Origin: Romanomermis culicivorax
Lineage: Eukaryota; Nematoda; Enoplea; Mermithida; Mermithidae
DNA length: 64,000 nucleotides
NCBI GenBank assembly: GCA_963922205.1
Contig: CAWUHX010000287.1
Location: 293,528-357,527, forward strand
Reading direction: 5' to 3'
The position numbers and the translations under genes were made by a program. The notes beneath the pieces were generated by a model. That model was not told the origin of the DNA and did not search any database. It was given only the letters and a program-made list of their open reading frames with translations. Below, one piece after another: positions 3,178 to 64,000 of this stretch. Every line of letters begins with the position of its first letter. Position 1 is the first letter of the stretch.

Positions 3178-5732
3178 GTAAATTTCGAATTTTTTTTTCT
3201 TTTCAAATTTTAATTCAATTAATTAGTTATTATTAAATTAGTTTAATATTCTGAAATTTAATTAATAATGAATTAATTAATTAATTTAAAAAATTGATTA
3301 AATTTAATGAATAAATTAAATTATATATTTTTAATTTTGATTTTATTGATTAACTATTTTAAAGTTGAGTTTAAATTGAATAAATTAATTATTGAAAAAA
3401 ATTAAATTAAATTATTTTTATTAGTTTAATTGATTAATGATTTCAAAATTTGATTATATCAAATTTTTTCAAATTAAATGAATAAATGAAATGAAAAGAA
3501 TATTTTTTTATTGATATTAATTAAATGAATGATTTATTTTAAAATTGAATTAAATTAAATTTATTTATATTGAATATATTTAATACTAAAAAATTGAATT
3601 GAATAAATTAATCAAATTAAGTTGAATATTACTGACTATTATTAATTAATTTAATTAACGATTTTAAAATTGAAATGAATAAATTAATTAATGGATTTAA
3701 ATCAGATTGAATATTATTAGTTATTATTGATTTAATTAATTAATAATTACTAGTTAAATTGATTATTAAACAATTAAATTGAATGATTAGAATTACTTCG
3801 ATGATTTCTAAATTTGTTCAACGAGGCATTAATTTGTTAATACAAGTAGGATTTAAATAGGTATACTATTTTTAATTAAATTAAATTTGATTGATTAAAA
3901 CTAATTAATTATCAAAAATTTAAATCAAATTAATTAATTAACTCAAATTAAATATAATTAATTATTATCAATTTAATTTATTGAAATTGGAGAAATTAAT
4001 TGCCAAAAAATTAAATTAGATAATTAAATTGAATTTAATATGATAGAATTAAATTTAATTTAATTCAATAGAGTTAAATTTAATTTAATTAAATTAAACT
4101 GGATCAAATTAAGTTAAATTTGATTTAATAAAATCAAATTCAATGGGATTAAATTTGATGAAATAACATAAATCAGTTTAGAACTTAGAATAAATTAATT
4201 ACAAAAAAATTAAATTGGATGAATAAATTAAATTAAATTACATATTATTAATTACTATTAATTAATTGTTGCAAGATCTAATTCAATTTAATTTAATCAA
4301 ACGGATTAATTATTAAAAATTAAATTAAATGATTATGAAGCAAAATATCTCGGTGGCATTAATCTGTTATCACAAATCGGATTCAAAATAAGTATACTAA
4401 TTTTTCATTATATTAAATTTACTTCAATAAAATTAAATTTGATCAAATTTAATTTAATTAAATTTGATTTAATTTAATTAAATTTATTAAATTCAATTTA
4501 ATTTATCAAAATGAATAAATTATCAGAAGTTAAATTGAATAGATTAATTAAATCAAATTAAATACTATTAATTAGAATTTATTAGATAATTTCTTTATTT
4601 CAAAATTGAATTAAATCTAATTTATTAAAATTAAAGAAATTAATGACCAAAAATAAAATTAGATTGACTTAAACTGAATTTGATTTAATATAGCCAAATT
4701 TAATCAAAATAAATTCAATTCAATAGAGCTAAATTTAATTGAATTTAATTAATTTGAATTTAATTTAGTAAAATTCAATTTCATAAAATAAAATAAATAA
4801 ATTTTTGGAACATCAAAATGAGTTAATTTCTAAAAAGTTAAAACGGGTCGATTATTAAAAAATTGAAATAAATTAATTTTTTAAAAATGAAAGTAAATTG
4901 ATTATTAAAAAATTAAAATAAATTAATTACTAAAACATTAAAATGAATTAAGTTTCAAAAAATTAAAATGAATCAATCATTAAAATATGAAATTAAATTA
5001 ATAATTAGAAAATTAAAATAAATTAATTATTAAAACTTTAAAATGAATTAAGTTTCAAAAAATTAAAATGAATCAATTATTAAAATATTAAATTAAATTA
5101 ATTATTGAAAAATGAAAGTAAATTAATTATCGAAAAAATTTAAATAAATTAATAATTAGAAAATTAAAATAAATTAATTATTAAAACAATAAAATGAATC
5201 AAGTTTTAAAAAATTAAAAGGAATTGACTATAAAAAAATTGTAGTAAATTTATTTTTTAAAATTGAGATAAATCAATTATTAAAAAATTAAAATAGATTA
5301 ATATTTGAAATTAAAGAAGATCAATTATTAAAAAATTAAAATAAATCAATTATTAAAAAATTAAAATAAATTAATTATCAGAAAATAAAAAAATATTGAT
5401 TTTTAAAAAATTAAAATGATGTAATAATTGAAAAATTAAAATAAATTAATTATTAAAACATCAAAATGAATTAAGTTTTGAAAAATTAAAATGAATCGAT
5501 TATTAAAAAGTTAATATAGATTTATTTTTTGAAAATTAACATGAATTAATTATCAAAAAATTAAAATGAATTAAAAATTGAAAAATTGAAATAAATTAAA
5601 AATTGAAAAATTAAAATAAATTTAAAATTGAAAAATTAAAATAAATTATTTATTCAAAAACAAAATTAAATTAATCATTTAAAAACAATATTAAATTAAT
5701 TTGATTAATTAAATTTTTAAGTTTTCTTTCAG
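3178..5732 (+). repeat. Transporter intron: AT-rich low-complexity DNA
   Basis: This 2555-bp intron runs from GTAAATTT to the acceptor TTTTCTTTCAG. The first half is made of AATTAAATT and TTAATTAATT words. From about 4800 it becomes a loose array with units like ATTAAAATAAATTAATTA and AAACATTAAAATGAATTAAG. GC content is extremely low and no coding signal is visible. Confidence 0.85.
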
Positions 5733-20800: not shown

Positions 20801-23800
20801 GTGTGTAAACTAAAATCAGAAAAGTGTAAAGTAGAAAAAACTGTGTGAACTACAAATCGAAATAGTGTAAAGTAGAAAAAAGTGTGTAAACTACAAATCG
20901 AAAAAGTGTAAAGTAGAAAAAACAGTGTAAAGTAAAATCCAATAACTGTAAAGTAGAAAAAAGTGTGTAAACTAAAAATCGAAAAAGTGTGTAAACTACA
21001 AATCGAACAAGTGTAAAGTAGAAAAAACTGTGTGAACTAAAATCCAAAAACTGTAAAGAAGAAAAAAGTGTGTAAACTAGAAATCGAAAAAGTCTAAAGT
21101 AGAAAAAAGTGTGTAAATTACAAATCTCAAAAGTGTAAAGCAGAAAAAAGTGCGTAAACAAAAACCTAAAAAGTGTAAAGTAGAAAAAAGTGAGTAAACT
21201 ACAAACCGAAAAAGTGTAAAGTAGAAAAAAGTGCGTAAACTAAAACCTAAAAAGTGTAAAGTAGAAAAAAGTGTGTAAACTAAAATCTAAAAAGCGTAAA
21301 GCAGATAAAAAGTGTGTAAACTAAAAATCGAAAAAGTGTAAAGTAGGAAAAAAGTGTTGTGAACTAAAATCGAAAAAGTGTAAAGTAGAAAAATGTGTGT
21401 AAACTGAAATAAAAAAGTGTAAAGTAGAAAAAAGTGTGTAAACTAAAAATCGAAAAAGTGTAAAGTAGAAAAATGTGTGTAAACTACAAATCGAAAAAGT
21501 GTAAAGCAGAAAAAGGTGTGTAAATCGGAAAAGTGTAAAGCAGATAAAAAGTGTGTAAACGAAAATCAAAAAAGTGTAAAGTAAAAAAAGTGTGTAAACT
21601 AAAATCGAAAAAGTGTAAAGCAGATAAAAAGTGCGTAAACTAAAATCGAAAAAGTGTAAAGTAGAAAAAAGTGTGTAAACCGACCCCCGTTTGCCTGTCG
21701 TTCAAATAGATGGCCGAATCCCAATGGCCGGTCAAATCGGCCAACGTTTCTTTGCCCAATTTGATTTTGCCCGTACAAACGTTCATGGAATCGGCGCCGG
21801 CCAGGAAAGGCTTCAATTTGAATTCTAAATCGGCCGTATAAGACGTACGATCGCAAACGACGCTGATCGAACCGCCCAATTCCATGGACAATGTGCCCAA
21901 AATCAGTCCTTTACAATGATTCAAGTGTAAAAAAGAAAAAAAACAAAAAAAAACAAAAAAAAAACAAAAAAAAAAACAAAACAAAAAAAGCAGAAAAAAT
22001 GTCAAAAAAGTAAAAATGTCACAAAAAAGTTAAAAACAAAAAAAAACAAAAAAAAACACAAAAAAAAACAAACCAAAGAAAAGAAAGAAAAAAGCAAAAA
22101 AACAAAAAACGTCAGAAAAGAAAAAATTTTTTAAAACACATGAAAAAATGTCAAAAAAGAAAACAGGAAAAAAAGTAAAAAGGTAAATGGCAACAAAGAA
22201 AAGGGTAAAAATATCAAAACTGAAAAAAATAAAAAATTTCGGAGGAGAAAAAAAAACTAAAATAGAAAAAACTAAAAACATACCAAAAATGTCAAAAAAA
22301 GAAAAAAGTATAATATGAAAAATCTCCAAAATATAAAAAAAGATTGAAAAACAAGAAACACAGAAAAAACAAAAAATAAAAAAATGTCAAAAGAGGAAAC
22401 CTGAAAAAGAAAAAAACAGCCGAAGAAGGAAAAAAGAAAAGAAAAAAACGTAAAAATAGTCAAAAAAAAGAGAAAAAATTCAAAAAAAGTACAAAAATTC
22501 ACAAAAAGAGTAAAAAAAATGAAAAAATTAAAAAATGTACAAAAGTATATAAAAAAGAACCAAAAAAAGTCAAAAAAATTAAAGTGTCAAGAAGGGAAGA
22601 AAGGAAAAATAAAAAAAAAGAAAAAATTATGTCAAAAATCTGAAAAAAGAGAAAAATGAAACTAGGAAAAAAGCTAAGAATGTCAAAAACAGAAAAAATA
22701 ACAAAAAAAGAAAAATGTCAAAAAAGAAAAAGTAAAATTGTCACAAAAAAGTTAAAAACCAAAAAGCAAAAAAAAATGTCAAAAAAGAGAAAAAGAAGAG
22801 TCCAAATTGTCAGAAAAGTAAAAAGTAAAAAATGACAGAAAATATAAATAATAATTACTAAAAAAAGTAAAAAATGTCGGAAAAGAAAACGAACGGAAGA
22901 AAACAAAGAAAAAAGTAAAAAAAAACAGGAAAAAATGTCAAAAAAGAAAACAGGAAAAAAGTGAATGTCAACAAAGAAAAGACTGAAAAAAAGTAAAAAA
23001 CTTCAGAAAGGAAAAGTATAAAAAAACTAAAAAAATTAAAAAATGTCAAAAAAAGAAAAAAGTAAAAAATGAAAAATTTCCAAAATATAAAAAAAGATTG
23101 AGAAACAAGAAAAAAGAAAAAAACGTGGAAAAAAAGAAAAAACAAAAAATAAAAAAATGTGAAAAGAGGAAACTTGAAAAAGAAAAAAAAATTTAAAAAA
23201 GCAAAAACAGTCGAAGAAGAAAAAAAAGAAAAGAAAAAAACGTAAAAATAGTCAAAAAAGAAAAAATTCAAAAAAAGTACAAAAATTCACAAAAAGAGTA
23301 AAAAAATGAAAAAATCAAGGAATGTAAAAAAGTAATATAAAAAAGAACAAAAACATAAAAAAGTCAAAAAATTAAAATGTCAAGAAAGGAAAGAGTAAAA
23401 TAAGGAAAAAAGAAAAAATGTGTCAAAAATCTGAAAAAAGAGAAAAGTTGAAACAAGGAAAAAAGTTAAAAATGTCAAAAACAGTAAAAAAAGAACAGAA
23501 AAACTAAAAAATGTCAAAAAATAAAAGTAAAAAAGTAAAAAATTGCGAAAAAAGTGAATAATAAAGAAAAAACGTCAGAAAAAAAAGATAAAAATAAAAA
23601 CTGCAGAGAAAGAAAAAGCTAAAGAAGACTAAAATATCTCAAAAAAGAAAAAACGTAAAAAAACAGTAAAAACGTCAGAGAAGAAACAAAGAAAAATCTA
23701 AAAAATGCCATAAAAGAAAAAATGTGGAAAAACAATGAAAAAACGAAAAAAACAAAAACAAAAAACAAAAAGTAAAAAAACTGTAGGGAAAGAAAAAGCT

Positions 23801-26800: not shown

Positions 26801-29800
26801 AAACAAAAAGTAAAAAAAACTGTAGAGAAAAAAAGCTAAAAAAGACTAAAATATCTCAAAAAAGAAAAAACGTAAAAAAACAGTAAAAACGTCAAAGAAG
26901 AAACAAAGAAAAATATAAAAAATGTCATAAAAGAAAAAATGTAAAAAAACAATGGAAAAGCGAAAAAAAAACAAAAACAAAAAACAAAAAGTAAAAAAAA
27001 CTGTAGGGAAAGAAAAAGCGAAAAAAGACAAAAATATCTCAAAAAAGAAAAAAACGTAAAAAATAAAAAACAGTGAAAACGTCAAAGAAGAAACAAAGAA
27101 AAATCTAAAAAATGTCATAAAAGAAAAAATGTAGAAAAACAATGAAAAAGCGAAAAAAACAAAAACAAAAAACAAAAAGTAAAAAAACTGTAGAGAAAAA
27201 AAGCTAAAGACTAAAATATCTCAAAAAAGAAAAAAACGTAAAAAATAAAAACAGTGAAAACGTTAAAGAAGAAACAAAGAAAAATGTAAAAAATGTCATA
27301 AAAAATGTAGAAAAACAATCAAAAAGCGAAAAAAACAAAAACAAAAAACAAAAAGTAAAAAAAAACTGTAGGGAAAGAAAAAGCGAAAAAAGACAAAAAT
27401 ATCTCAAAATAGAAAAAAAACGTAAAAAATAAAAACAGTAAAAAGTCAAAGAAGAAACAAAGAAAAATCTAAAAAATGTCATAAAAGAAAAAATGTCGAA
27501 AAACAACGAAAAAGCGAAAAAAACAAAAACAAAAAACAAAAAGTAAAAAAAAAACTGTAGGGAAAGAAAAAGCTAAAAAAGACTAAAATATCTCAAAATA
27601 GAAAAAAACGTAAAAAATAAAAACAGTAAAAACGTCAAAGAAGAAACAAAGAAAAATCTAAAAAATGTCATAAAAGAAAAAATGTAGAAAAACAACGAAA
27701 AAGCGAAAAAAACAAAAACAAAAAACAAAAAGTAAAAAAAACTGTAGGGAAAGAAAAAGCTAAAAAAAGATAAAAATATCTCAAAAAAGAAAAAAACGTA
27801 AAAAATAAAAACAGTAAAAACGTCAAAGAAGAAACAAAGAAAAATCTAAAAAATGACATAAAAGAAAAAATGTAGAAAAACAATGAAAAAGCGAAAAAAA
27901 ACAAAAAGTAAAAAAAAACTCTAGGGAAAGAAAAAGCTAAAAAAGACTAAAATATCTCAAAAAAGAAAAAAAACGTAAAAAATAAAAACAGTGAAAACGT
28001 CAAAGAAGAAACAAAGAAAAATCTAAAAAATGTCATAAAAGAAAAAATGTAGAAAAACAATGAAAAAGCGAAAAAAACAAAAACAAAAAACAAAAAGTAA
28101 AAAAAACTGTAGAGAAAAAAAGCTAAAAAAGACTAAAATATCTCAAAAAAGAAAAAACGTAAAAAAACAGTAAAAACGTCAAAGAAGAAACAAAGAAAAA
28201 TATAAAAAATGTCATAAAAGAAAAAATGTAAAAAAACAATGGAAAAGCGAAAAAAAAACAAAAACAAAAAACAAAAAGTAAAAAAAACTGTAGGGAAAGA
28301 AAAAGCGAAAAAAGACAAAAATATCTCAAAAAAGAAAAAAACGTAAAAAATAAAAAACAGTGAAAACGTCAAAGAAGAAACAAAGAAAAATCTAAAAAAT
28401 GTCATAAAAGAAAAAATGTAGAAAAACAATGAAAAAGCGAAAAAAACAAAAACAAAAAACAAAAAGTAAAAAAACTGTAGAGAAAAAAAGCTAAAGACTA
28501 AAATATCTCAAAAAAGAAAAAAACGTAAAAAATAAAAACAGTGAAAACGTTAAAGAAGAAACAAAGAAAAATGTAAAAAATGTCATAAAAAATGTAGAAA
28601 AACAATCAAAAAGCGAAAAAAACAAAAACAAAAAACAAAAAGTAAAAAAAAACTGTAGGGAAAGAAAAAGCGAAAAAAGACAAAAATATCTCAAAATAGA
28701 AAAAAAACGTAAAAAATAAAAACAGTAAAAAGTCAAAGAAGAAACAAAGAAAAATCTAAAAAATGTCATAAAAGAAAAAATGTCGAAAAACAACGAAAAA
28801 GCGAAAAAAACAAAAACAAAAAACAAAAAGTAAAAAAAAAACTGTAGGGAAAGAAAAAGCTAAAAAAGACTAAAATATCTCAAAATAGAAAAAAACGTAA
28901 AAAATAAAAACAGTAAAAACGTCAAAGAAGAAACAAAGAATCTAAAAAATGTCATAAAAGAAAAAATGTAGAAAAACAATGAAAAAGCGAAAAAACAAAA
29001 ACAAAAAACAAAAAGTAAAAAAAACTGTAGGGAAAGAAAAAGCTAAAAAAAGATAAAAATATCTCAAAAAAGAAAAACGTAAAAAATAAAAACAGTGAAA
29101 ACGTCAAAGAAGAAACAAAGAAAAATGTAAAAAATGTCAGAAAAGAAAAAAAGAAAAAATGTCGAAAAAACAATGAAAAAGTAAAAAAAACAAAAACAAG
29201 AACAAAAAACAAAAAGTAAAAATTGAAAAAAGGCAAAAAACATACCTTTACAATGGGCATACGGTAGGTTGACCGTGTAAGTTTCGCCCCGGTTCAGGAG
29301 GCAAATTTTGGCGTTCCCGATCAATATGGCCGACAACGAATTGCCTAAAAAATTTTAAAGATTGAAAAAAGCAAAAAAAACACAATCCTGAAAATGATAA
29401 AAATGAAAACAAACAAAAATTAACAAAAATTAAACAAAACAAAAAAACAAAACAAATAAAAAACAACCAGAAAAAGTACACAAAAAACGAAACAAACAAA
29501 AACACAAAAAAATGTTTAAAATGGAAACAAGCAATTAAGGCAGTAAATAAGTAATAAAAAAGAAAAACGAACAAACAAAAGCAATTATGAAAGAAAAAGT
29601 ACGCAAATAAAATAAACGTGAAAAATAGAAAAAAAATAAAAAGGAAAATAAAAAACAAAATAATCAGAAACGTGAAAATAGAAAAAAACGAAAACAACAA
29701 AATAGAGAAGAAAAAAGAAACAAAACTAATAACAAAAATAAAATATGAAAAGTAAAAAGAAACAAACAAACAAAGCAAAAACTAAAAGAAAAAAGAAAAA

Positions 29801-32800
29801 ACTAAGAAAAAATAAAAGGAAAAACAAGGAAAAAAGAAAAGAACAAGAAAAAGAAAAGAAAAAACGAGAGGAAGAAAGAAGAAAACAGAAAAAAAGAGAA
29901 CGAATAGAAAAAAAACAAGAAAAAAGAGAAAAGAAAAATCCATAAAAAATTAAAAAGCAAGAAGAACAACAAAAAGAGAAAGAAAAAAAACAAAACGATA
30001 AAAAGGGGAGAAACAAGGAAAAGAAAAGAAAAAAGAAAAAAAGAAAGGGAAAGAAAAGACATAGAAGAGAAAATAAAAGAAAACACATAGAAGAGAAAAT
30101 AAAAGAAAAAATGAGGAAAAGAACAAAAAAAACAAGAAAAAGAAAGAGAATAAACCGAGAAAAAGAAAGAGAAGAACAAGAAAGAAAAAGAAAAAACCCA
30201 GAAAAAGAAAAAGATGAAAAGTGAAAAAATGAAGGTAAAGAAAAGGAAAAGAAAAAACCAAAAAAAATAACAAAACAAGAAAAAGAAAATAAATAAAAGG
30301 AAGAAAACAATAACAAGAAAAAGAAAAGAAAATTCAAGAAAAAGAAGACGAAAAGAAAAATTAAAAAAATAAATGAAAAAAACAAAAACATACCAAGATA
30401 AAAAAAAGAAAAGGGAAGGAAAGAAAGAAAAAACAGAAAAAAAAACTTTGAAAGAAAGAGAAAAAACCAATAAAAAAAGAAACAAGAGAAAGAAAAGAAA
30501 AAACAGGGAAAAGAAAGAGAAAAAAAACAAATAAAATAGAAGAAAAAAAGGAAAAACAAGAGGAAGGACAGAAAAAAACACGAGGAAAAAAAGAAAAATA
30601 GAGAAAGAAAGAAACAAGAAAAAGGAAAGAAATAACAAGAAAAAAAGGAAAAGAAAAAAACCAATACAAAACAAAGAGAAATACCCCGAAAAAAGAAAAA
30701 GAAAAACAAGGAAAAGGAAAGTAAAAAGAAAGAAAAGTAAGAACAAAAGAAAAGAGAAAAAATGAGAAGAAAAAACCAAGAAAACGAAGAAACAAGAGAA
30801 AGAAAAGACAAAACAAGAAAAAGAAAAAAAGCAAGGAAAAGAAAAAACAAGGAAAAGAGGAGAAAAAATAAGAAAAAGGAAAAAAACAGAGAAAAGAGAA
30901 GAAAAAAAGAGGAACGAAAGAAAAAACAAGAGGAACAAAAGAGAAAAAAAGAGAAAGAAAAAAAACAAGGAAATGAAAAGAAAAAACAAAAGAAAAGAAA
31001 AAATAAGAGAAAAAACGAGAAGAAAAAACCAGAAAAAACAAGAAAAACCAAGAAAAAGTAGCGACGAGAGAAAGAAAAGAAAAAACAGGGAAAAGAAAGA
31101 GAAAAAAGAAGAAAAGAAAAAAACAAAAAAGGGAAAAACAAGGAAAAGAGAAGAAAAAATAAGCGGAAAAAAAGAAAAAAACAAGAGGAAGAAAAGAAAA
31201 AAACAACAGAAAGAAAAGAAAAACAAAAGAAAGAAAGAAACAAGAAGAAGAAAAAAACCAATAGAAGGTAAAAGAAAAAACCAATACAAAAGAAAGAGAA
31301 AAAAGGAAAAGAAAAGAAAAAACAAGAAAAACGAAAAGAAAAAACCAAGAAAAAGAAAGAGAAGAAACAAGAAAAACAGAGAAAAGAGAGAGAAAAAGCG
31401 AGGAAAAAGGAAAAAAACAAAGAAAAGAGAAGAAAAAACGAGAAAAAGGAAAAACAAGGTAAAGAGAAGAAAAACAAAAAAAAGAGAAGAAAAGAAAAAA
31501 TCAAAAAAGGGAAAAACAAGGAAAAGAGAAGAAAAAATAAGCGGAAAAAAAGAAAAACAACAAGAGGAAGAAAAAAAACAACAGGTAGAAAAGAAAAAAC
31601 AAAAGAAATAAAGAAACAAGAAGAAGAAAACCAATAGAAGGTAAAAGAAAAAACCAATACAAAAGAAAGAGAAAAAACGAGAAAAAAGGAAAAAAAGAAA
31701 AAACAAGAAAAACGAGAAGAAAAAACCAAGAAAAAGAAAGAGAAGAAACAAGAAAAACAAAGAAAAGAGAAGAAAAAACAAAAAGAAAAGAGAAGAAAAG
31801 AAAAAATCAAGAAAAGAAAATAAAAAATTAAAAAAGAAAACAAAAAAAGCACAAAAAAATTTTCCTACCGTAAAATTTCGACCTAGCCAAAATGGATCCG
31901 GCGACGTTGTAACCGGCTTTGCGGTTACTGGCGAAAAAGGCCGAAACGGGCGGATGGTGCGAAACTTGTTCGGCCACGTAAAACGTCCGACCCTGGGCGG
32001 AGTCGTCGTCGTCGTTTTTCCGCCAAAAACAACGAAATTTTTCGCCCAAAATTGGATTATACGGCTTTTTTAAGCCCTGAAAAAAAAACCACATTTGAGA
32101 ATCGGAATCGAAATTCATATATGAATTGATGAGAATCGGAATCGAAAAAATTTTTAGAGAAACTGGAATCGGAATCGAAATCAATCCAAAAAAAACGGAA
32201 TCGGAATCGAAAACACTGGAAAAATCTGGAATCGGAATCGAAAACATGCGGAAAAACTCATATCGGAATCGAAAGTTTCCAAGATAACTGGAATCGGAAT
32301 CGTAAACTTTCGACACAAGACTGGAATTCGAAAACACTCGGAAAAATCCGAATCAGAATTGAAAACGCTCGAAAAATCTGGAATCAGAATCAAAAAGATG
32401 CCAAAAAGCTGGAATCGGAATCGAAAAAACATGAATCTGAACCGGAAACAACCGAAAAACTGTAACCGGAATCGAAAAGATTCGGAAAAACTGGAACCGT
32501 AATACAAAACATCTGAAAAAACCGGAATCGGAAACATCCGAAAAAGCTGGAATCGGAATCGAAAATTTTCGGAAAAGCTGGAATCGGAATACAAAACGTC
32601 TGAAAAAACCGGAATCCGAATCGAAAACACCCGAGAAAGGTGGAACCGGAATCGAATAGTTCCGGGAAAACTGGAATCGGAATCGAAAACTTCTCAGATA
32701 ACTGGAATCGGAATCGTTAACTTTCGACACAAGACTAGAATTCGAAAACACTCGGAAAAATCCGAATCGAAAAACTGGATCCAAGTCGAAAACCTTCGAC

Positions 32801-49680: not shown

Positions 49681-49928
49681 CAAAAAAGCAAAAAAACATA
49701 TAAAGAAATGTAAAAAAAATAAATAATTTTTTATGTTTTTTAATCGTCAAAATTTAAATAAATTATCGATTTCGATTCCTACTTTTTCGATTCCAATTCT
49801 CTTAGAACTCTATTCTCAATCTTTTTAAAAAAAAAAACTCTAGAAATTAGGCGAAAAATTGAGTTTTTTGGCGGACTTTGGTAATTAATTCTGAACGACA
49901 ATGGGAATATGCTGAATTCTGATCGAAA

Positions 49929-50127
49929 CATACCTGTACTTGGGGGGCGGGTTGGGGGGGGGACCCCCCAACTTGGCCAACCCTGTACCCAAAATTATTT
50001 ACCCCCCAGTTTATAAAAAATTAAAAAAATTTGCAAAAAAGTGTATGTTTTTTGGCCTTTTTTGGGGAAAATTTCGACTTTTTTCTACCCCCCCCTTCCC
50101 CAACTGGTCGGAGGTCTTACAGGTATG
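49929..50127 (+). mobile_element. MITE copy 1 (CATACCTGTA ends, 8-bp target duplication)
   Basis: A 199-bp element from CATACCTGTACTTGGGG to CTTACAGGTATG. The ends are a 10-bp inverted repeat, and GATCGAAA occurs exactly on both sides (49921-49928 and 50128-50135). Inside are long G and C runs and a T-rich centre; no coding capacity. It lies between MRPL12 and ORP. An 8-bp duplication suggests a non-autonomous hAT-like transposon, but the ends do not identify the superfamily. Confidence 0.88.
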
Positions 50128-50135
50128 GATCGAAA

Positions 50136-50310
50136 AGTTTCAAGACTCGGATCGGAACCAAAAATCTTAAAACTTATTGATTGCAGATAATTATAGGTCA
50201 AAATTTAAATCATATCGAAAATATTTCCGATTCCGATTCCAAAAACCTAAACTTTCGATTCTCAAATTTTTTCTTTCTTCTTCGTTTGATGGAAAAATAT
50301 CGGTTTTTTC
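50136..50310. other. Spacer between MITE copies
   Basis: AT-rich unique sequence with a few TTCCGATTCC words. No coding or repeat structure recognised. Confidence 0.4.
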
Positions 50311-50318
50311 CGCGCAAG

Positions 50319-50518
50319 CATACCTGTACTTGGGGGGGGGGGGGGGTTGGGAGGGGGGGGGGCCTCCCCCCAACTTGGCCAACCCTGTACCCAAAATCAT
50401 GTACCCCCCCCATTGTGGGAAAAATTGAAAAAATTTGCAAAAAAGTGCATGTTTTTTGGGAAAAATTTCGATTTTTTTCTACCCCCCCCCCTAACTGGTC
50501 GGAGGTCTTACAGGTATG
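50319..50518 (+). mobile_element. MITE copy 2 (same family, same orientation)
   Basis: A 200-bp element with the same CATACCTGTA and TACAGGTATG ends, flanked by CGCGCAAG (50311-50318) and CGTGCAAG (50519-50526), 7 of 8 identical. The left third has uninterrupted G runs followed by a C run that could form a hairpin or a G-quadruplex. Internal sequence is close to copy 1, from which it is separated by 191 bp. Confidence 0.88.
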
Positions 50519-50526
50519 CGTGCAAG

Positions 50527-51042
50527 TACGCTGGAAAATGTAGAATTTTAGTGGTTTTCTCGAAAATAAATGAAACAAAAATCACAAAAAATGAAATGAG
50601 GCGTTATAAATAAGCTAAATCAACCACGTATAACTTAAAAAAATGAAATTAGACTTATATATATTTACGATCTTATTTGAGCGTGTAAAAATTGAAAATA
50701 ATCGCCACCACCGGCCAGAAAAGTTTAGAAACTTTTGGACTGCATGTGACGCCCGAAACGTATTTTTTCGAATTGAAAGTCGCACATTTCTGAGAGCTAG
50801 AGCCAAAATTTTTCTTCCGTTAACAAAATTTGAAAAAAACGGCACAAAAATTCGTCGAATTTAGGATTATAATTCTACAGTATACAGCAGTTAAGCAGCT
50901 CAAACTCAATAACATTACGCACATCATTTTGTAAAAACAATACAGACAAACAACAAAATATAGTAAATTGTAAATGATTGCGGACGTCTAGAAAATTCTA
51001 TTTGTAAATTTTAAAAAATAAACAACAACAAAAAACATATTT
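50527..51042. other. 3' flank of MRPL12
   Basis: About 500 bp downstream of the MRPL12 stop. Unique, moderately AT-rich, with a short GC-richer patch around 50700-50830. I see no gene and no canonical - strand AATAAA. Confidence 0.4.
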
Positions 51043-51159
51043 TCAAGCAATTTCGCATTCGCCGCCCAACGATTCCAATTTTTGTTTCAATTTTTCCGCT
51101 TCGTCCTTACTAATATCGGTTTTTACCGTTTGAGGTAAACTTTCGACGAATTTTTTCGC
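51043..51159 (-). CDS. MRPL12 exon 4: end of C-terminal domain
   Basis: Acceptor CATTTTTTAG; 38 codons and TGA. It encodes AKKFVESLPQTVKTDISKDE and AEKLKQKLESLGGECEIA, matching the bacterial [20 protein letters not shown] and EEAGA ending. No tail extension. Confidence 0.94.
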   Translation of the reverse strand, partial: AKKFVESLPQTVKTDISKDEAEKLKQKLESLGGECEIA

Positions 51160-54100
51160 CTAAAAAATGGCGAAGAATAAAAAAAAATTTGATGAATTTC
51201 TCTTTTGTTTTCTATTCTTTCTTTTATTTTTTTCAACTTTTTTGTGTTTTATCTTCTTTTTCTTTTTTATTTTATCCTTTCGTTTGTTTTGTTTTATCTT
51301 CTTTTTTGTTTTACTGTTTTTTCTTTCCTTTTTGTTTTATTTTATTTTTTTTCCTTTTTCTTCCTTGATTAGTTTTATTTCCCTCTTTTCTTTTCTGTTC
51401 GGTCTTTCTTATCTTATGTTTTTTTCTGTTTGTTTGTTTTTTGTTTTATCTTTTCTTTTCTATCTTATTTTTTCATTTTTTCTTTTGTTTCTTTCATTTT
51501 GCTTCTTTCTTTCTTATTTTGTTGTTTTCATTTTGTCTTTTGAAATGTTTCCCTTTATCGTTTTATTGTTTTTCTTTTTCTCTGTTTTCTATTTTTATAT
51601 TTTATTTTGTTATACTTCTTTGTTTTATTTTCCTCTTTTATTTTTTTGTTTCAATTTGTTCTTTTTGCTTTGTTTTTCTTTTTTTTCGTTCGACATTGCC
51701 TTTCCTACTTTTCCTTTTTTGTTTTTTCGTTTTTTGTCTTCTTTCACTTTTCTTCTGATTTCTTTGTTTTATTTTCTTTTTTTGTTTTATTATTCCTGCT
51801 TTTCTCTTCTCTTTCTTTCATTTTCTTTTTTTCTCCTTTGTGGTTTAATTTTTTTGTTTTATTCTCCTTTTTCTTTGTTTTTCTTGTATTTTCTTTTTTG
51901 TCTAATCGTTTTTTCTTTTTCTGTCATTTTTGATTTATTTCTTTGATTTCTTCTTTTTCATTTTGCTTTTTTTTTGTTTTTTCTCTCTCGTTTTTGTCTT
52001 TTCTTTTGATTTCTTTCTTTTTAGTTTTATTGTTCTTGCTTTCCTTCTTCTTTTGTTTTATTTTCTCTTTTTTCCATATTGTTTCTCCTTTTCATTTTGT
52101 TTTTTTATTCTTTTATTTCTTTTTTCTTCTGTTCTGTTTTCGTTTTATTTTTTTTCTTTTCTGCCAGTTGTTTTTTCCTTGTGGTTTGTTTTTTTCTTTG
52201 TTTTGCCTTTTCTCCTGTTTTTTGTGTTTTATTTCATTTTCGTTTTTTCTTATACTGGTTTTCTCTTTTTTTCTTTTTTTATATTTTGTTTTTTTGTTTT
52301 GTTATGTTTTTCTTCTTTCTTTTCTTGGATTTTTTCTTTTTATTTTGGATTTTTCTGAGTTGCATTTGTTTCTTTTTTTGGTTTTTCTGTTTAATTTTCA
52401 TTTATTTTCATTTTCTTTCATTTAATTTCTTTGTTTTATTGCTTTTATTTTCTTTGCTCTATTTTGTTTTTTCTTTTTTTTGGCTTCAGTTTTTTCCTTT
52501 TTTTTGTTTTTTTTTTACTTTTTTACTTTGATGTTTTCTTCTTTTCTTTGATTTTTTTGCTGTTTTCCATTTTGATTTTTCTTTTGTTTTTCTTCTTCTT
52601 TTATTTTTGATTTCTCCTTCTATTTTACTTTGTTTTTTCCTGGTTTCATTTTGTCTCTTTTTGATTACATTTTCTCCTTCTCTTATTTTTAATTTTTTTA
52701 TTTTCTTTTTCTATTTTTTGTTTATTTTTTTCATTTTCTGTTTAATTTATTGTAGTTTTCTATTTTTTTCTTTGTTTTTCACTTTTGTTTAATTTTATAA
52801 GTAGAAAATTTTTTTTTTACTTGAACTAAATTCATGCCCGTCGTTATATTTTTCACTTCTTTGATCAAATCGATTTTTTTGCCGTCGGCGAATTTCAATA
52901 ATTTGACGGCGTAGGACGTTTTAGCGACGACGGTTTGGCCGCCTTCGTCGTCGTCTTCGACCTATGAAAAAAATTTCATTTTATCTAATGTCTTACTGTA
53001 GAATTTTCGTTCGAGTACTTGCTTTCTATTTTCAAAAAAGCAAACAAGAATAAAGCATGCAAAATTATGCAAATGAGGTAGCTATATATCGATCGATATC
53101 CCAAAAATACAACTTTTGTTATTTAATTTTCAATTTTGATCAAGTTAATATGGATCAAAAATCGATATCGTAAGACGAAAAATATGCAAATAAGGCATCG
53201 ATTGATTGATTGACAGATCAGAACAATCAGTTTTTGATCATTAGATCAGAAAATTCAAATTTTGATTACTAGATTGAAGAGTTAGTGAAAAAAATCAGTT
53301 TTTGATTCACATAACAAAAAATTAGTTTTTGATAACTAGGTCAAAAAAATCAATTTTTTTAATCACGTGATCGATAGCACTTTTCGATTGACAATTCGAA
53401 AAAATCAGTTTTCGATCACTCAATAAAAAAGTCAGTTTTTGATCAATGGATTAAAAATTCAGTTCTTGACTAGCAGATCAAAAGCAACTTTTGATTGACA
53501 GATCAAACAAATCAGTTTTTAATTACTCAATTAAATCAGTTGTTGATCACTTGATTTAAAACTCAGTTCTTGACCACCAGATCAAAATCGCTTTTTGATT
53601 TTCAGATCAAAAAACTCAGTTTTTGATCACTTGATTATTCTCTGATTGACAGATCGAAAAATCACTTTTTGATTACTCAATTAAGTCAATTTTGATCAAT
53701 TGATCAAAAAGACAAAATTTTGATTACTAGATTGAAGAGTCAATGAAAAAAATCAGTGCTTGATTCACATATCAAAAAATTAGTTTTTGATCACTAGGTC
53801 GAAAAAACCAATTTTTTGATCACGTGATCAAAATCACATTTCGATTGACAATTCAAAAAAATCAGTTTTTGATCACTCAATTAGAAAATATGTTTTTAAT
53901 CATTAAATTACAAATTCAGTTCTTGATTACCAGATTAAAATCACTTCCTGATTGACAGATCAAAAAAATCAGTTTTTGATCATTAGATCAGAAAGAGATT
54001 ACTAGATTGAAAAGTCAGTGAAAAAAATCAGTGTTAGATTCACATACAGAAAAATCAGTTTTTGATCACGTTATCAAAATCACTTTCTGATTGACATGTC

Positions 54101-57100
54101 AAAATAATGAGTTTTTGATCGCTAAATTAAAAAGTCAGATTTTGATCAAGTAATTAAAAATTCAGTTCTTGACTAGCAGATCAAAATCACTTAATGATTG
54201 ATTAAAATAACTTTTTGATTGGCAGATAGAAAAAATCAGTTTTTGATCCCGTGATAAAAATCAATTTTTGATTGACAGATCAAAAAAATCAGTTTTTGAT
54301 CACTCAATTAAGTCAGTTTTGGATCATTGAATCAAAAAGTCAGTTTTTGATCACGAGATTAAAATCACTTTTTGATTGATAGATCGAAAAAAATAGATTT
54401 TGATCACTCAATTAAAGAGCCAGATTTTGATCAATGGATTAAAAATTCAGTTCTTGACTGGCAGATCGAAATCACTTCTTGATTGATCACTCAATTAGAA
54501 AGTCATTTTTTGACCACGTGATCAAAATCATTTTTGACTGACACATGAAAAAATCAAATTTTGATCACTCAATTGAAAAGTCAGTCTTTAATCGCTAGAT
54601 TAAAAATTTAATTGTTGACTACTAGATCAAAATCACTTTTTGATTGACAAATAAAAAAAATAATCAGTTTTTGATCACTGAATTGAAAAGTCAGTTTTTA
54701 ATCACTGGATTAAATACTCAGCTCGTGATCAAAATCGTTTTTTGATTGATAGATGAAAAAATTAGTTTTTAATCACTGGATTAAATACTCAGCTCTTGAT
54801 CACGTGATCAAAATCGTTTTTTGATTGATAGATGAAAAAATTAGTTTTTAATCACTGGATTAAATACTCAGCTCTTGATCACGTGATCAAAATCGTTTTT
54901 TGATTGATAGATGAAAAAATTAGTTTTTAATTGCTAAATTAAAAAGTCAATGTTTGATAATTGGTTTGAGAATTCAGTTCTTGACCAGCGGATCGAAATC
55001 ATTTTTTGATCGATAGATCAAAAAACTCAAATTTTGATCACGTGATTAAAATCATTTTTTGATTGACAGATAAAAAAACTCAGTTTTTGATGACTCAATT
55101 AAAAAGTCATTTTTTGATGAGCAGAAAAAACTAGTGTTTGATTCACATATCAAAAAAATCGGTTTTTGATCACTGAATTAACAATTCAACTGTTGATCAC
55201 AAGAACAAAATCCATTCTTGATTGACAGATAAGAAAATCAGTTTTTGATCACTCTATTGAAAAGTCGACAAACAGATCAAAAATCACTCTCTGATCACTA
55301 TAGATCATTTGATATGTGTTTTTGATCAAGTTATTTTGCGTGAAATATGAAAATGAGGTATCGATCGATAGATCCTTTTGATTTATATCAAAATTTGAAA
55401 ATTTTATCAATTGATCATTAATTTTGATCAAGTCATTATTGATAAAGATTTGATATGATCAGATTGAAAAGAGGAAGCAATCGATAGATTTCTTTGATTT
55501 ATATCAAAATTTGAAAATTTCATCATTTGATCACTAATTTTGATCAAGTTATCATCAATGAAAATTTGATTTGATCAAATTGAAAATATGCAAATGAGGT
55601 ATCGATCGATAGATTTTTTGATTTGTATCAAAATTTGAAGCTTTCATCATTGGATCATTGATTTTGATCAAGTTATTATCAAAAAAATTTGATTTGATCA
55701 AATTGAAAATATGCAAATCAGGTGTCGATCGATACTAGATTTTTTTAATTTGTATCAAAAATTGTAATTTTCATCGTTTTATTTTCACTTTTGATCAATT
55801 TATAGTCAACAATTCGACTCGATATCAGTGTGGAAAAGTTGCCAAAAAGGATATTCTATTTTCTTACTGTAAAATTTTTGGTCGCAAAATTCAATACTTG
55901 CTTTTCACTTTGAAAAAAAACACATTTTTCGACAAAATTGACATTTTTTGCGCTTACTTTGGCCGGTCCGGCGCTCGGCGCCGCCGCTGCGAAAGACATC
56001 ATCGGGGCGTCCGGAATATTAAATCTTTTCTTAAAAAAAAAATAATCAGTTATCGGGTATCCGGACCCGGGAGAAGACCCGAAATTTTTGAAATTTTGAA
56101 TTCGGAGCCAAACCCGAAATTCTTATAATTTTGGATCCGGACTCGGACCCGATATTCCCAAAATTCTGGACTCGGACCCGAACAGGATATTCTTGAAATT
56201 CCGGTCCACGTCTCGAACCCGATGTTCTCAAAATTTTGGACCCGGACTCGATATTCTCAAAATTTTGAACCCGAACCCGATATTCTCAAAATTTTGGACC
56301 CGAACCTGATATTCTCAAAATTTTGGACACGGACTCCAACGCCATATTCTCGAAATTTCGGATCTGGATCCGACATTCTTAAAATTCCGGGTCAGAGCCG
56401 AATCCGATATTCTTTGAAATTTTGGACTTGGACTCGAAGCCGATATTCTTAAAATTCTGGACACGGATCCCAACCAGACATTCTTAAAATTTTGGACTCG
56501 GAGCCGAAACCAATATTCTTAAAATTTTGGATACGGACCCGAAATTCTTATAATTCCGGACCCGGACCCGATATTCTTGAAATTTCGCACACGGATCCCA
56601 TCCAAGCAGATATTCATAAAATTTTGCATTTGGACCCGAACCCGATATCCTTAAAATTTTGGATCCGGACACGAAATTCTTGAAATTTTGGACAAGGATC
56701 CCACCCGAGCAAGCAGATATTCCCAAAGTTTCGGATCCGGACCCGAACCCGATATCCTTAATATTCCGGATCCGGAGCCGAACCCTGTTTGCTTGAAATT
56801 TCGGAAACGGATCCAGACCCGAAATTCTAAAAAATTCCGGATTCGGAGCCGAACCGGTTGTGGTTGAAATTTTGGATACAGATCCCAACGAAATATTCTC
56901 AAAATTTGGGACTTGGAGCCGAACCCGATATCCTTGAAATTCTCCGGAGCCGAACCCGATATTCTAGAAATTTTGGACATGTATCCGGACCGGAAATTCT
57001 TAAAATTCCGGATCCGGAGCCGAACCTGATATTGTTGAAATTTTGGACACGGATCACGAACCCGAAATTCTTAAAATTTTGGATCTGTACACGAACCCGA

Positions 57101-58195
57101 TATCCTTAAAATTTTGTATCCCAAGCCGAAATTCTTAAAATTCCGGATCCAAAGCCGAACCCGATATTCTTGAAATTTCGGACACGGAGCCGAACCCGAT
57201 ATTCTTAAAATTTTGGATCCGAACCCGAAATTCTTACAATTCCGTACCCGGACCCGATATTCTTGAAATTTCGCACACGGATCCCACCCAAGCAGATATT
57301 GTTAAAATTTCGCATCTGGACCCGAATCCGATATCCTTCAAATTTTGGATCCGGACACGAAATTCTTGAAATTGGACACGGATCCCACCCAAGCAGATAT
57401 TCCCAAAGTTTCGGATCCGGACCCGAACCCGATATCCTTAATATTCCGGATCCGGAGCCGAAACCTATTTGCTTGAAATTTCGGAAACAGATCCGGACCC
57501 GAAATTCTTAAAAATTCCGGATTCGGAGCCGAACCCGTTATAGTTGAAATTTTGGATACGGATTCCAACGAGATATTCTCAAAATTTGGGACTTGGAGCC
57601 GAACCCAATACCCTTAAAATTCTCCGGAGCCGAACCCGATATCCTTAAAATTTTGTATCCCAAGCCGAAAGTCTTAAAATTCCGGATCCAAAGCCGAACC
57701 CGATATTCTTGAAATTTCGGACACGGATCCGAACCCGATATTCTTGAAATTTTGGATCCTGAGCCGAACCCGATACCCTTGCAATTTTGGACACGGATCC
57801 CAACCCGATATCCTTAAAATTTTGGATCCGGACCCGAACCCCCGATATTGTCAAAATTTTGAAGTTTGACTCGAACCGGATATTCTTGAAATTTCGGTGC
57901 CGGTCCCGAACCCGATATTTTCAAAAAATCATTTATATACTTTCAACGCTTTATTCAAATCCGAAACTTCTAATAAGGTTAATTGGGAAATTTCGTCCAA
58001 AATTTGCGTAATTTTGGGCGATAAACGTTGTCGATCTTGTTGATCGGCCGGCGGCAATTCTAACGGTTCGGCGTCCGGGGCGGCGACGGCCGCCAAAACG
58101 TTAGCGTTTCGTCGATTGGACGTCATATTATTAGTACGCTGACGATTAATCAATCGGACGAAATTCAACAAATTTATTTTTTGTATTTTGGACAT
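51043..58195 (-). CDS. Mitochondrial ribosomal protein L7/L12, whole gene (4 exons)
   Basis: Exons 58195-57941, 56029-55958, 52961-52821 and 51159-51043 total 585 nt, 194 residues plus stop, all joined in phase 0. The N-terminal 35 residues are rich in Arg, Lys and Asn with no acid, as in a mitochondrial targeting peptide. Then LSPKITQILDEISQLTLLEV (N-terminal dimerisation domain), an Ala/Pro hinge, and the C-terminal domain (KLLKFADGKKIDLIKEVK, LVQAKKFVESLPQTVK, EAEKLKQKLESLGGECEIA). In bacterial and mitochondrial ribosomes this protein forms the stalk that recruits translation GTPases. Size is close to human MRPL12 (198). Confidence 0.94.
51160..52820 (-). repeat. MRPL12 intron 3: T-rich on + strand
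   Basis: About 1.66 kb of T with some C and G (TTTTCTTTTGTTTTA words), A-rich in the transcript. Phe-rich + strand frames of up to 259 codons follow from composition. No fixed period seen. Confidence 0.85.
52821..52961 (-). CDS. MRPL12 exon 3: first half of C-terminal domain
   Basis: Acceptor TTTTTTCATAG, donor GTAAAAAA; 47 codons. It encodes VEDDDEGGQTVVAKTSYAVK then LLKFADGKKIDLIKEVKNIT and TGMNLVQ, the L7/L12 pattern of a beta strand followed by K-x-x-x-I-K-x-V-x-x-x-T-G-x-x-L. Confidence 0.94.
52962..55957 (-). repeat. MRPL12 intron 2: TTTTTGATCA arrays
   Basis: From about 53200 to 55270 the sequence is an irregular array of CAGTTTTTGATCACT, AAAATCACTTTTTGATTGAC and AGATCAAAAAA, with occasional TCACGTGATC. 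From 55290 to 55760 it changes to units of about 110 bp with GAGGTATCGATCGATAGATT, ATATGCAAATGAGG and TTTTGATCAAGTTATTATC. Confidence 0.88.
55958..56029 (-). CDS. MRPL12 exon 2: hinge
   Basis: Acceptor TTTTTTTTAAG, donor GTAAGC; 24 codons, phase 0. It encodes KRFNIPDAPMMSFAAAAPSA then GPAK, the Ala/Pro-rich flexible hinge after LNKALK. The alternative acceptor five bases on would put a stop in frame. Confidence 0.9.
56030..57940 (-). repeat. MRPL12 intron 1: CCGGACCCGAACCCGATATT array
   Basis: Units of about 37 bp from about 56050 to 57915: TTGGATCCGGACCCGAACCC followed by GATATTCTTAAAATT. It is related to the ORP intron 1 array, but in the opposite orientation. A block recurs with small changes (56580-56900 and 57270-57600). 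Confidence 0.92.
57941..58195 (-). CDS. MRPL12 exon 1: targeting peptide and N-terminal domain
   Basis: ATG at 58195-58193, 85 codons, donor GTATATAAA. It has a basic, Asn-rich presequence (MSKIQKINLLNFVRLINRQR), an Ala/Pro-rich acidic linker, then LSPKITQILDEISQLTLLEV and SDLNKALK. The last part matches L7/L12 helices (I-x-x-L-T-L-L-E-x-x-x-L). The ATG is the first after a good acceptor at 58254. Confidence 0.92.
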
Positions 58196-58265
58196 TTTTC
58201 AATCGATAATTAATTTATTAATTTTTTAATTAATTTTTTTTTTAAATCCGAATCTGAAAAAATTA
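58196..58265 (-). promoter_or_regulatory. Candidate spliced-leader acceptor and 5' UTR of MRPL12
   Basis: On the - strand TTTAATTTTTTCAG ends at 58254, leaving a 58-base AT-rich leader before the ATG. This is the classic nematode acceptor and, as at the ORP gene, has no obvious upstream exon. A 5' UTR intron is the alternative. Confidence 0.45.
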
Positions 58266-59373
58266 AATTTCAATGCGATAATAAAATTTTTGAATAAATC
58301 CGAATTAAAAATGTTTATTAAAAAATGAGTATTTTCTATACAAAAATTTTTTTACACGGAATTTTTCGGAGCAAGAGTGATCATTTTCTACGAAAAAAAA
58401 AGAAAACTTTTTGATCATTATTTTGGAATTATTTAGAAAAAAATGACATTTTCCATCGTGTTTTGTCCAGAAACGATGTTTTTCTACGAAAAAAATCATA
58501 TTTTTCACTGCTTTCCATAGAAAAAACCGTCGTTTTCTAGCGTTTTCCATCAAAAAATGATCACTTTTTCAAAAAAAAAACCAACTTTTTCTCGTTAAAT
58601 TTGATGAATCTACGACTTTAAAGACAAGAGAATAATTGAAAAAATTCAAAAAAACGTTGAAAATGAAGCATTTTTGAACGGGGGAAACCAATCTTTCTGA
58701 ATAAATCTTCGGAAAGTAGCGAAAAGAGTCCAATTTTTTCGCCGCGAAAAACCTGCGATTGCTCCAACAAAATTTCAATGCGATTACAGTAAACCCTTGA
58801 ATTTTTTTCCAGCTGTCCACTAAAATGACAAACTTGCATTCAAACTCAATATTTGACACAAGGAAATATTACTTCGTTCTTTTAAATTTTAGATGTATAC
58901 AATTTTTTCTTGCGATTAAGGAAAAAAATCGTTTTCTAGCGGCAAAATTGTATTTTCGAGCCTTTTTTTACGCTAAAAATGACCAAGTTCTCCAAAAAAT
59001 TGACAGTTTCGAATCGAGAAAAAAAACTGTTTTCCGCAGAAAAATGGACTTTTCGTCCGCTTTTTGCCTGAAGAGCGCCGGAAAAACTGACGCTTTCGAT
59101 TTTTTTACGCAAAAAAATGATCATTTTCTCACAAAAAATTGAGACATTTGAATTTTTTTCCATCAAAACCGAAAAATTCGTTTATTTATACGCAAAAAAC
59201 GATTTTTTTTTCATTTAAAATGCATCGTTTTGTAGCAAAATATCGATATTATTTTCTAACTTTTTAACCACGAAAAATTGATATTTTTGACCGTTTTCCA
59301 CTAAAAAATGATAACTTAATAATTAACTACTTTTAATACGTCAATGTGTTTGAAAAAACTAAAAATAAAGCAA
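58266..59373. repeat. Degenerate intergenic repeat block
   Basis: Contains loose repeats of AAAAATGATCATTTT, TTTTCTAGCG and GAAAAAATTG plus a block with GATTACAGTAAAC and CTAAAATGACAAACTTGC (58782-58835) that recurs at about 60424 and 62349. No supported gene; reading frames are short and not family-like. Confidence 0.5.
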
Positions 59374-59381
59374 CTTTGAGC

Positions 59382-60237
59382 CATACCTGCAAGAGGTCTG
59401 ACCAGTTGGGGGGGGGGGTAAACCCAAAATTTTGGGGGTGGGGGTCCCAACTTTTCCAAAATTTTGGGGAAGGGGGTCGAAAAAACCCCAAAAAAGTCGA
59501 AAAAATTTTGAAAATTTTCCCAAAAAAGCCACTTTTTTTTTCCAATTTTTCCGAGTTTGGGGGGGGGGGGTTGGGTATAGGGTTGACCAGGTTGGAGGTG
59601 GGAGTCCCGAGATTTGAGTATAGTGTTATGGGGCGTTTGACGTGTTTGTAAAGTTCGTGTCATTTTTGGAAAAGATCGGCAAGTTAGGTAAAGCAAGATC
59701 ATGACGAGACCCATGAAGAGGCGTGGCTACGATGTGAAGAAATTGTGAAAATGTTTTTTGGATTGAGACTGTTTGTACTGTAGCCAAACAGTTGTGTCCT
59801 GGCGTGTGTAGAGATTTTGGAAGTTTGAGGCTGCAATTTTGTGTATTAGTAAATTGTGTTTTGAGTGTGTGGTCTAGGATAAGTCAAACTATTTGGAAAA
59901 TAGTTTGAGTAATTGGGTGAAACTCCTAGTCGGGAAAGAAAGTGCAGTCCGAGTTTCAGCATCCGAAAACCTTCAATGACCCGAGCGAAGAACCTTGGAA
60001 AGTTGACATAGCGCTCTCTACGAGCCCGTCAATCTCCTGAATTCGATTATCGTTGCGTTAAATTCGTCTAACACTCCCACTGTTTAATTATTAGTGTTCC
60101 GCACGCTCTTCCACGTTCCGTACGTCTTATTACAAACGCGTGATAAATCGTCTAGCTATTAGCGTCTTATTTTCACCCATACGACAATAGGGTTGGACCA
60201 AGTTGCGGATGGGGGTCCTCCCCCAATTACAGGTATG
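59382..60237 (-). mobile_element. MITE copy 3, long, with nested insertion
   Basis: Starts CATACCTGCAAGAGG and ends AATTACAGGTATG. Its left end matches the reverse complement of the right end of copies 1 and 2, so the orientation is reversed. It is flanked by CTTTGAGC (59374-59381) and CTTTAAGC (60238-60245), 7 of 8 identical. At 856 bp it is 650 bp longer than the others, mostly because of a 563-bp inserted segment. No coding capacity. Confidence 0.82.
59624..60186. mobile_element. Candidate solo LTR nested in MITE copy 3
   Basis: A 563-bp segment beginning TGTTATGGGG and ending CCCATACGACA. The ends are TG...CA and form an imperfect inverted repeat (TGTTATGGG against TGTCGTATGGG). It is flanked by ATAG on both sides (59620-59623 and 60187-60190). 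Composition is balanced, unlike the AT-rich surroundings, and there is no open frame. These features fit a solo LTR of a retrotransposon; a diverged internal part of the host element is the alternative. Confidence 0.5.
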
Positions 60238-60245
60238 CTTTAAGC

Positions 60246-62520: not shown

Positions 62521-62837
62521 TTATTGCATAATGACAAAACGACAAAATCCGGACGATCGATGCTCCCTTATGCGTTTAAAATGGCGTAAAATTTGGACGA
62601 CGCTTTTGAAAAAAATTTTCTGATCTTTAGGCGTCGAAATGAATGATTTTAAATCATTTTCGATTAAAAATCCTTCATTATTCTTTAATTGGGGGCATAA
62701 TTGACGTTTATAGTAATTAAATTTCTCTTTGGAAACGCGGCAATTTTCCACTTTTTTAGATAAAAAATCGTATTTTTCAAGCAAACATTGATTAAATTTG
62801 TCGATTAATCGATTAATTTCCGATAAATTTAAGCGAC
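62521..62837 (-). CDS. SKA1-like kinetochore protein, last exon (partial gene)
   Basis: Acceptor AATTTTTTAG at 62838, then 105 codons and TAA. It encodes GRLNLSEINRLIDKFNQCLL, KYDFLSKKVENCRVSKEKFN, FLIENDLKSF, and ILRHFKRIREHRSSGFCRF near the end. The pattern (GR-[LIV]-x-x-x-x-IN near the start, a KY-x-[IF]-L segment, F-x-x-x-x-D-[LI]-K-x-F, then ILRH-x-[KQ]-R-[IL]-RE-x-R-x-x-G[LF]-x-R) is that of the C-terminal microtubule-binding winged helix of SKA1. In the Ska complex this domain holds kinetochores on dynamic microtubules. Upstream exons lie beyond the right edge. Called from motif pattern only. Confidence 0.72.
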
Positions 62838-64000
62838 CTAAAAAATTAAAATTAAAAATTTTGTTAATTTTGGAGGAAAAATTCAAAAATTCGCATGCTA
62901 CAGTAAACAGGAACTTTGAATTTTCACATTCCTGACCCGAGAATACTTACTTTTCAACTTTAAAATTTTCAACCGCATTTTTTCTTAACGTTTTGAAACA
63001 TAAATGAACGAGTTTAACTATTCAAAATATTTAAATTCTTCCTCGTTTAAAAATATTTTTTGTTTTGAAAAATAAATATTTTCAGAGGAAATATGAATTT
63101 TTTAATCAAACAATCCAAAAATATTGAAGTTTTTAAATTTTTTCTCCAAAAAAACTCATTTTTTGGAAAAAATGCAACTTTTTCGAGAAATATCAAGTTT
63201 TCGAAGCTTTTTTCTCCAGAAGTTTAATTTTTCCGGCAGAAAAGTGTTGATTTTTCAATTCAAAAAAATGCTAATTTTTTGTAAAATATCAAAACTTTTC
63301 AATTTTTTTTCTTAAAACATTCATTTTTTGAAGAAAAATGTAAATTTTTCAAAACGAAAAAATCAATTTATTGAAGAATTTTGTTTTTACTTTTTTTTCC
63401 TCGAGAACTTTTAAATAAGTTTTTGCAAGAAAAAGCAAATTTTTAAAACAAAAAAATTAAAATTTTATGGAGAATTCTGAGTTTTTTCAACAAAAATGCA
63501 AATTTTTAAAACAAAAAATGCAATTTTGTGAAAAAATTTTGACTACTCTAGAAGATTTGTCTCGGAAAATCTGCGTTTTTTGCACATTTTTAAATGAAAA
63601 AATACAAATTTCATGGAAAATTTTTAGTTTTATAGTTTTTCCTGGAAAAAAATCGAGTATTTTGCACAAAAAAGTAAATTTTTAATTCAAAAAATGCATG
63701 TTTTATGAAAAATTTCGACTTTTCTATTTTTTTTTTCTTGGAAAAAATCAAGTTTTTCTGTACAAAAACGCAAATTTCTAAATCAAAAAACACGACAATT
63801 CTCAGTTTTCTAGTTTCTTCCTGGAAAAAAATTTACTTTTTTGCACAAAAAGACAAATCGTCAATCTAAAAAAATGCAAATTTCATGAAAAATTTCGAGT
63901 TTTCTAGTTTTTTCCGCAGAGAAATTGCGGTTTTTTGCACAAAAATGCAAATTTTTGAATTAAAAATTGCAAATTTTTCGACAAATATCAAGTTTTTCAG
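62838..64000 (-). repeat. SKA1 intron: degenerate A/T-run DNA
   Basis: Alternating A-runs and T-runs with words such as AAAATGCAAATTTTTAAA, CAAGTTTTTC and TTTTTCCTGGAAAAAA. The loose period is about 110-120 bp from 63380 onward. No exon recognised up to the window end. Confidence 0.65.

Follow-up and report, generated by a model that had tools for sequence, protein, structure and literature searches.

A family of genuinely transposed MITEs with 8-bp target duplications is almost certainly represented by three repeats in the stretch of Romanomermis culicivorax DNA analysed here (64,000 nucleotides; hereafter the window). Judged from sequence, its members are MITEs of ~200 bp that end in 10-bp inverted repeats and appear to carry no gene. 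MITEs are an ordinary, well-known kind of element; the ends of this family are unusual. The lengths of tips and duplications, together with the target motif, suggest that the family is probably moved by a hAT transposase.

Three copies in the window

The window was scanned for opposed tip pairs less than 6 kb apart, with tip-like decamers at no more than 2 mismatches and flanking 8-mers differing at no more than 2 places. The three pairs recovered are exactly the three copies in Table 1. Allowing one mismatch, CATACCTGTA occurs 7 times in the window (0.40 expected; 0 of 100 shuffles reach 7). Six of these decamers are element ends and the seventh, at 29241, is unpaired. The positions, tips and 8-mers given in an earlier, sequence-only reading were confirmed, with the qualification that one tip of copy 3, CATACCTGCA, has one mismatch relative to the CATACCTGTA-type tip. 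Copies 1 and 2 lie in the same orientation with 191 bp between them, and copy 3 is inverted. Because their 8-bp duplications differ, copies 1 and 2 are separate insertions.

Table 1. Positions of the MITE copies, their target duplications and the solo LTR in the window, and of long end-pair intervals on other contigs
Feature	Position	Strand	Remarks
Left 8-bp target duplication, copy 1	49921..49928	.	GATCGAAA
MITE copy 1	49929..50127	+	199 bp; 10-bp inverted repeats CATACCTGTA/TACAGGTATG
Right 8-bp target duplication, copy 1	50128..50135	.	GATCGAAA; perfect pair
Left 8-bp target duplication, copy 2	50311..50318	.	CGCGCAAG
MITE copy 2	50319..50518	+	200 bp
Right 8-bp target duplication, copy 2	50519..50526	.	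CGTGCAAG; one mismatch
Left 8-bp target duplication, copy 3	59374..59381	.	CTTTGAGC
MITE copy 3	59382..60237	-	856 bp including insertion; reverse orientation
4-bp duplication, left of solo LTR	59620..59623	.	ATAG
Solo LTR within copy 3	59624..60186	.	563 bp; TG...CA
4-bp duplication, right of solo LTR	60187..60190	.	ATAG
Right 8-bp target duplication, copy 3	60238..60245	.	CTTTAAGC; one mismatch
Long end-pair interval	C2:2035445-2038869		
Long end-pair interval	C2:2395837-2398949		
Long end-pair interval	C2:2861946-2864387		
Long end-pair interval	C2:2318430-2319755		
Long end-pair interval	C1:3531125-3537065		
Long end-pair interval	C3:358006-359989		

The two ends share a terminal inverted repeat of ~10 bp. 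Inward of it, the left end continues with CTTGGGG... and the right end, read inward, with AGACCTCCGACC..., and the subterminal regions rich in G and C runs differ between the two sides. The interior is made up of G and C runs plus an A/T-rich middle. When folded as single strands, the left portions of copies 1 and 2 were no more stable than shuffled sequences (z -1.12 and -0.38). With regard to coding capacity, the elements are ~200 bp long and homopolymer-rich, and the overlapping window frames of at least 110 aa extend into the flanks.

We considered whether the greater length of copy 3 marks it as a more complete relative and rejected this. The additional sequence is a solo LTR, so copy 3 does not represent a longer, structurally distinct type of member. 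Without the solo LTR and one ATAG, copy 3 is a MITE of 289 bp that can be aligned with the other two copies and has part of a subterminal stretch duplicated. The segment 59620-60190 has at least 41 other matches in the genome (40 of 1,000 candidates scored). Among the matches listed, five contigs (C48, C35, C74, C397 and C233) each carry two same-strand LTR matches ~10-12 kb apart, the arrangement that a retrotransposon with an LTR at each end would give. Gypsy-group elements show 4-bp duplications in the passages cited (PMC3276498), a comparison that here concerns only the solo LTR.

Several other features were seen in the window. Exon-like frames at 21640-22029 (-) and 31828-32352 (-) match the oxysterol-binding protein profile PF01237 (profile positions 163-239 and 73-136, respectively), so one gene may span ~10 kb with introns rich in simple sequence. 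A frame at 62521-62946 (-) matches the kinetochore protein SKA1 (PF07160, E 2e-13). On the minus strand of 26846-28859, two pairs of long frames (26846/28133 and 27204/28491) were seen by eye to have equal translations at a spacing of 1,287 bp, which suggests that low-complexity sequence was duplicated here recently.

Abundance, end pairing and target duplications across the genome

The genome searched comprises 359 Mb in 595 contigs (C-numbers denote contigs and L-numbers loci). Exact 17-bp ends were found 3,647 times for the left end and 4,269 times for the right end, and the reversed patterns were found 0 times. Since exact matching misses diverged ends, these counts are underestimates. The sequence-only reading described a three-copy family; three is the number in the window, and genome-wide there are thousands of exact ends. 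With copy 2 as the query, 46 matches were listed (40 of 1,611 candidates scored), mostly near full length and at 80-90% identity. Neither the viral nor the prokaryotic contig collections searched contained an exact copy of the 22-base right end. As the elements are of low complexity, rich in G/C runs and located in an AT-rich window, chance or an assembly artefact might be suspected, but the zero reversed-control ends, together with the independent duplications, refute this explanation, and we regard its probability as negligible.

End pairing was tested for 87 left ends in the range of C1-C3 common to both end listings; of the 100 left ends listed, 13 fell outside the range of the right-end listing and were not used. 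A right end in the proper orientation was present within 400 bp of 47/87 left ends, compared with 5/87 in the wrong-direction control. The remaining left ends had a partner at 401-1,000 bp (2/87), at 1-10 kb (8/87) or none (30/87). By estimate, chance would give the 40 left ends unpaired within 400 bp ~2 partners in the 1-10 kb range, and 8 were found; in two of these pairs, the right end is shared with a left end that lies nearer. The excess could also stem from clustering of repeats. Six facing left/right end pairs on C1-C3, 1.3-5.9 kb apart, have no nearer exact partner (Table 1).

Target duplications were assessed in the window and 53 loci (20 around exact C1 left ends and 33 around hAT matches). 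A looser end search returned 52 left-type and 37 right-type ends, giving 35 pairings; its left pattern tolerates 3 substitutions and hence also catches ends of a sister family, described below. The flanking 8-mers were identical in 16 pairings and had one mismatch in 11. The sequence-only reading had proposed this flank check and held that copies lacking duplications would speak against the family as it described it. Duplications with no more than one mismatch are present in 27/35 pairings, compared with 3/1,190 cross-copy pairings, in which the left 8-mer of one copy was set against the right 8-mer of another. The other 8 pairings have 3-6 mismatches, and at least 2 of them (L002 36-713 and L003 1017-2116) straddle two neighbouring elements. 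Transposition, which the same reading had called close to certain on the strength of three independent 8-bp duplications, holds for the window and, from end counts, pairings and duplications, also well beyond it.

Of the 27 duplication-bearing pairings, 26 are 82-248 bp long and the remaining one is copy 3. Divergence from the consensus is 1.6-16.1% across 29 copies, suggesting insertions of varied age, some of them young. At L016 428-646, the right duplication of a MITE copy (GCCATACC) overlaps the tip of a neighbouring copy, and from its sequence this MITE appears as if inserted at the end of the other.

The 27 duplications give the target motif nTYnnRAn. T2/A7 were found at 32/54 positions (p 4.9e-5, one-sided against base composition) and Y3/R6 at 44/54 (p 1.7e-6, one-sided, the test having been chosen after the counts were seen). 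T2/A7 is a preference only, with both bases in 8/27 duplications and neither in 3/27.

The sister family has CATACATGTA-type tips and is represented by five copies of 432-464 bp (L002, L007 twice, L013 and L015), all with 8-bp duplications at 0-1 mismatch. It is 89% identical to the first family over the first 19 bases, and the interiors are weakly similar. Genome-wide, 3,334 exact left ends of this sister family were counted, which brings the total for the CATACCTGTA and CATACATGTA families to 6,981. The two sister-family elements of L007 (2008-2445 and 4006-4442) share their duplications and the flanks next to them, suggesting either that a segment was duplicated in tandem or that the assembly contains it twice. 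The genome's repeat annotation gains two well-supported, high-copy MITE families, whose insertions are markers of varied age. In a full-text literature search for the tip strings, the titles and abstract openings among the papers listed contained no transposon description of these tips.

A hAT transposase as the probable moving enzyme

We propose that a transposase supplied in trans would excise the MITE by cut-and-paste chemistry and that the excised MITE would be joined to staggered cuts 8 bp apart, generating the 8-bp duplications. The enzyme itself would probably belong to the hAT superfamily. The hAT tip is usually given as YARNG, a rule that the CATAC tip does not follow; the CATAC tip also differs from the ends of hAT families in the same genome (TAGGGATG, TAGTGATG and TAGAGATG). 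Published descriptions, in the parts cited, give hAT elements short terminal inverted repeats and 8-bp duplications (PMC3942097, PMC3517528), with a repeat length of 5-27 bp (PMC3517528). The family studied here fits in its ~10-bp inverted repeat, its 8-bp duplications (27/35) and its preference for nTnnnnAn (Ac type). Where the sequence-only reading suggested "hAT-like or similar" elements, the lengths of tips and duplications and the target motif do make hAT the best-supported guess, but the CATAC tip is atypical and no transposase is tied to the ends.

In a first look by transposase profile, candidates numbered 1,837 for hAT, 248 for MULE, 247 for IS1595/Merlin and 0 each for P and KDZ. For hAT, 150 matches were scored of the 1,837 candidates, and 30 loci plus 3 flanks of these 150 listed matches were read. 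Each locus spans the domain +/-1.5 kb, which includes the 3' edge where the boundary is readable and often leaves the 5' edge outside. None of the 30 loci has the family tips at a hAT element edge within the locus, and tip-like decamers are absent from 26 of them. In L040 and L044, complete copies of the MITE neighbour the hAT gene; L023 and L039 contain isolated single decamers. Among three further 3' flanks, no tip is present in L051 or L053. The far edge of L052 does carry a right-type tip, but its orientation is that of a separate element beginning there and not of the hAT element ending. The top hAT matches were rejected as partners for families with a readable edge, where other tips are found. 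The search for an autonomous relative, also suggested by the sequence-only reading, recovered no element with these tips plus a transposase in the loci read.

Rival enzymes and comparison with known systems

Merlin (IS1595-type) transposases make 8-9-bp duplications, a range that accommodates the 8-bp duplications seen here, and the DDE_Tnp_IS1595 profile matched 150/150 scored candidates (247 in all), many with open frames of ~300 aa. Merlin tips usually begin GG, unlike CATAC, and two near-identical IS1595 copies of one family have no such tip in the 370 bp past the domain, a stretch that falls short of the element ends. It is very unlikely that a Merlin enzyme moves these MITEs. At L054 (C122:78395-78764) and L055 (C142:244962-245331), 369/370 bases of IS1595-type copies are identical from the domain end onwards; such identity on two contigs may reflect recent activity of this IS1595 family.

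A Mutator-like (MULE, Phantom-type) transposase is a quite unlikely mover. MULE domain matches are common (122 from 150 scored, of 248 candidates, compared by position only), and the cited account gives MULE duplications as 8-11 bp, with 8 bp for Spectre and 8-10 bp for Phantom (PMC6446971). Tm1 and Phantom also resemble the present case in their 8-10-bp duplications and, for Tm1, in having MITE-like derivatives in an invertebrate, but they have composite or longer terminal inverted repeats (PMC3169594, PMC6446971, as far as the cited passages go). MULE repeats are usually longer than those here, at 14-500 bp in the text cited (PMC6446971), and the nematode Tm1 is described as making mostly 9-bp duplications with no clear consensus (PMC3169594), whereas the duplications here are 8 bp with a palindromic motif.

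One locus brought a possible MULE partner into view, with a FLYWCH-like frame near CATACATG tips. L009 2641-5874 resembles a 3.2-kb element with CATACATG tips and the 8-bp repeat GATGATGA; CATACATGC-type elements are also present in L009. The frame at 4692-5036 (-) was recognised as FLYWCH-like by eye, without a Pfam call, and lies next to inverted GGCGCC-rich repeats. The right boundary of the element is a real repeat boundary, as each of the 39 other matches (40 of 253 candidates scored) ends between bases 103 and 111 of the 193-base query, and by eye no boundary match among those listed adjoins a FLYWCH-like match. A compact duplicate at L009 279-1085 has no match to the FLYWCH stretch. Because the boundary matches and the compact duplicate come without FLYWCH, the frame is most likely a separate insertion, which counts against a MULE. 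We therefore set this locus aside as evidence for a FLYWCH-MULE partner. The 150 scored FLYWCH-like matches (of 753 candidates, and including the frame itself) comprise 2 within 5 kb of a MULE match (0.5 expected) and 1 within 5 kb of an IS1595 match (0.6 expected). Possibly the frame belongs to a repeat family of its own.

P elements start with CA, as do the tips here. They also make 8-bp duplications at the target motif GTCCGGAC in the section cited (PMC3276498), and nTYnnRAn fits this too, through its palindromic TY..RA. In addition, the six long end-pair intervals on C1-C3 contain, by eye, no hAT, MULE or IS1595 match among the matches listed. The family differs from P in that the central CG is not preferred. 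The profiles PF21787 (P transposase RNase-H) and PF18758 (KDZ) gave 0 matches, and the control genomes likewise gave none. A partner from the P superfamily, from KDZ or from an undescribed DDE superfamily is unlikely.

The wider interest of the families hangs on their transposase. Should it prove not to be hAT, an enzyme that uses CATAC tips and makes 8-bp duplications would be a new group. That a transposase from an undescribed clade or superfamily, recognising CATAC tips and making 8-bp duplications, serves both the CATACCTGTA and the CATACATGTA family seems rather improbable.

We return to hAT as the probable enzyme. Hobo/Ac-type hAT elements are similar to the present family in their short terminal inverted repeats, their 8-bp duplications and the favoured T2 and A7 in the target. 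They differ in having YARNG tips, compared with CATAC here without a linked transposase. The hobo target motifs given in the cited passage are NTNNNNAN and GTNCGNAC (PMC3276498), and nTYnnRAn matches them. Mar, a hAT MITE family of Drosophila willistoni, is described in the cited text as short, with 11-bp terminal inverted repeats and 8-bp duplications (PMC3517528). According to the same text, Mar was first placed in hAT from the length of its inverted repeats and target duplications, before an autonomous element was known (PMC3517528). Mar has CAG(G/A)GGTAGGC tips and nnnTAnnn target duplications (Buster) in that description (PMC3517528), whereas the family reported here has CATACCTGTA tips, the target motif nTYnnRAn and thousands of copies.
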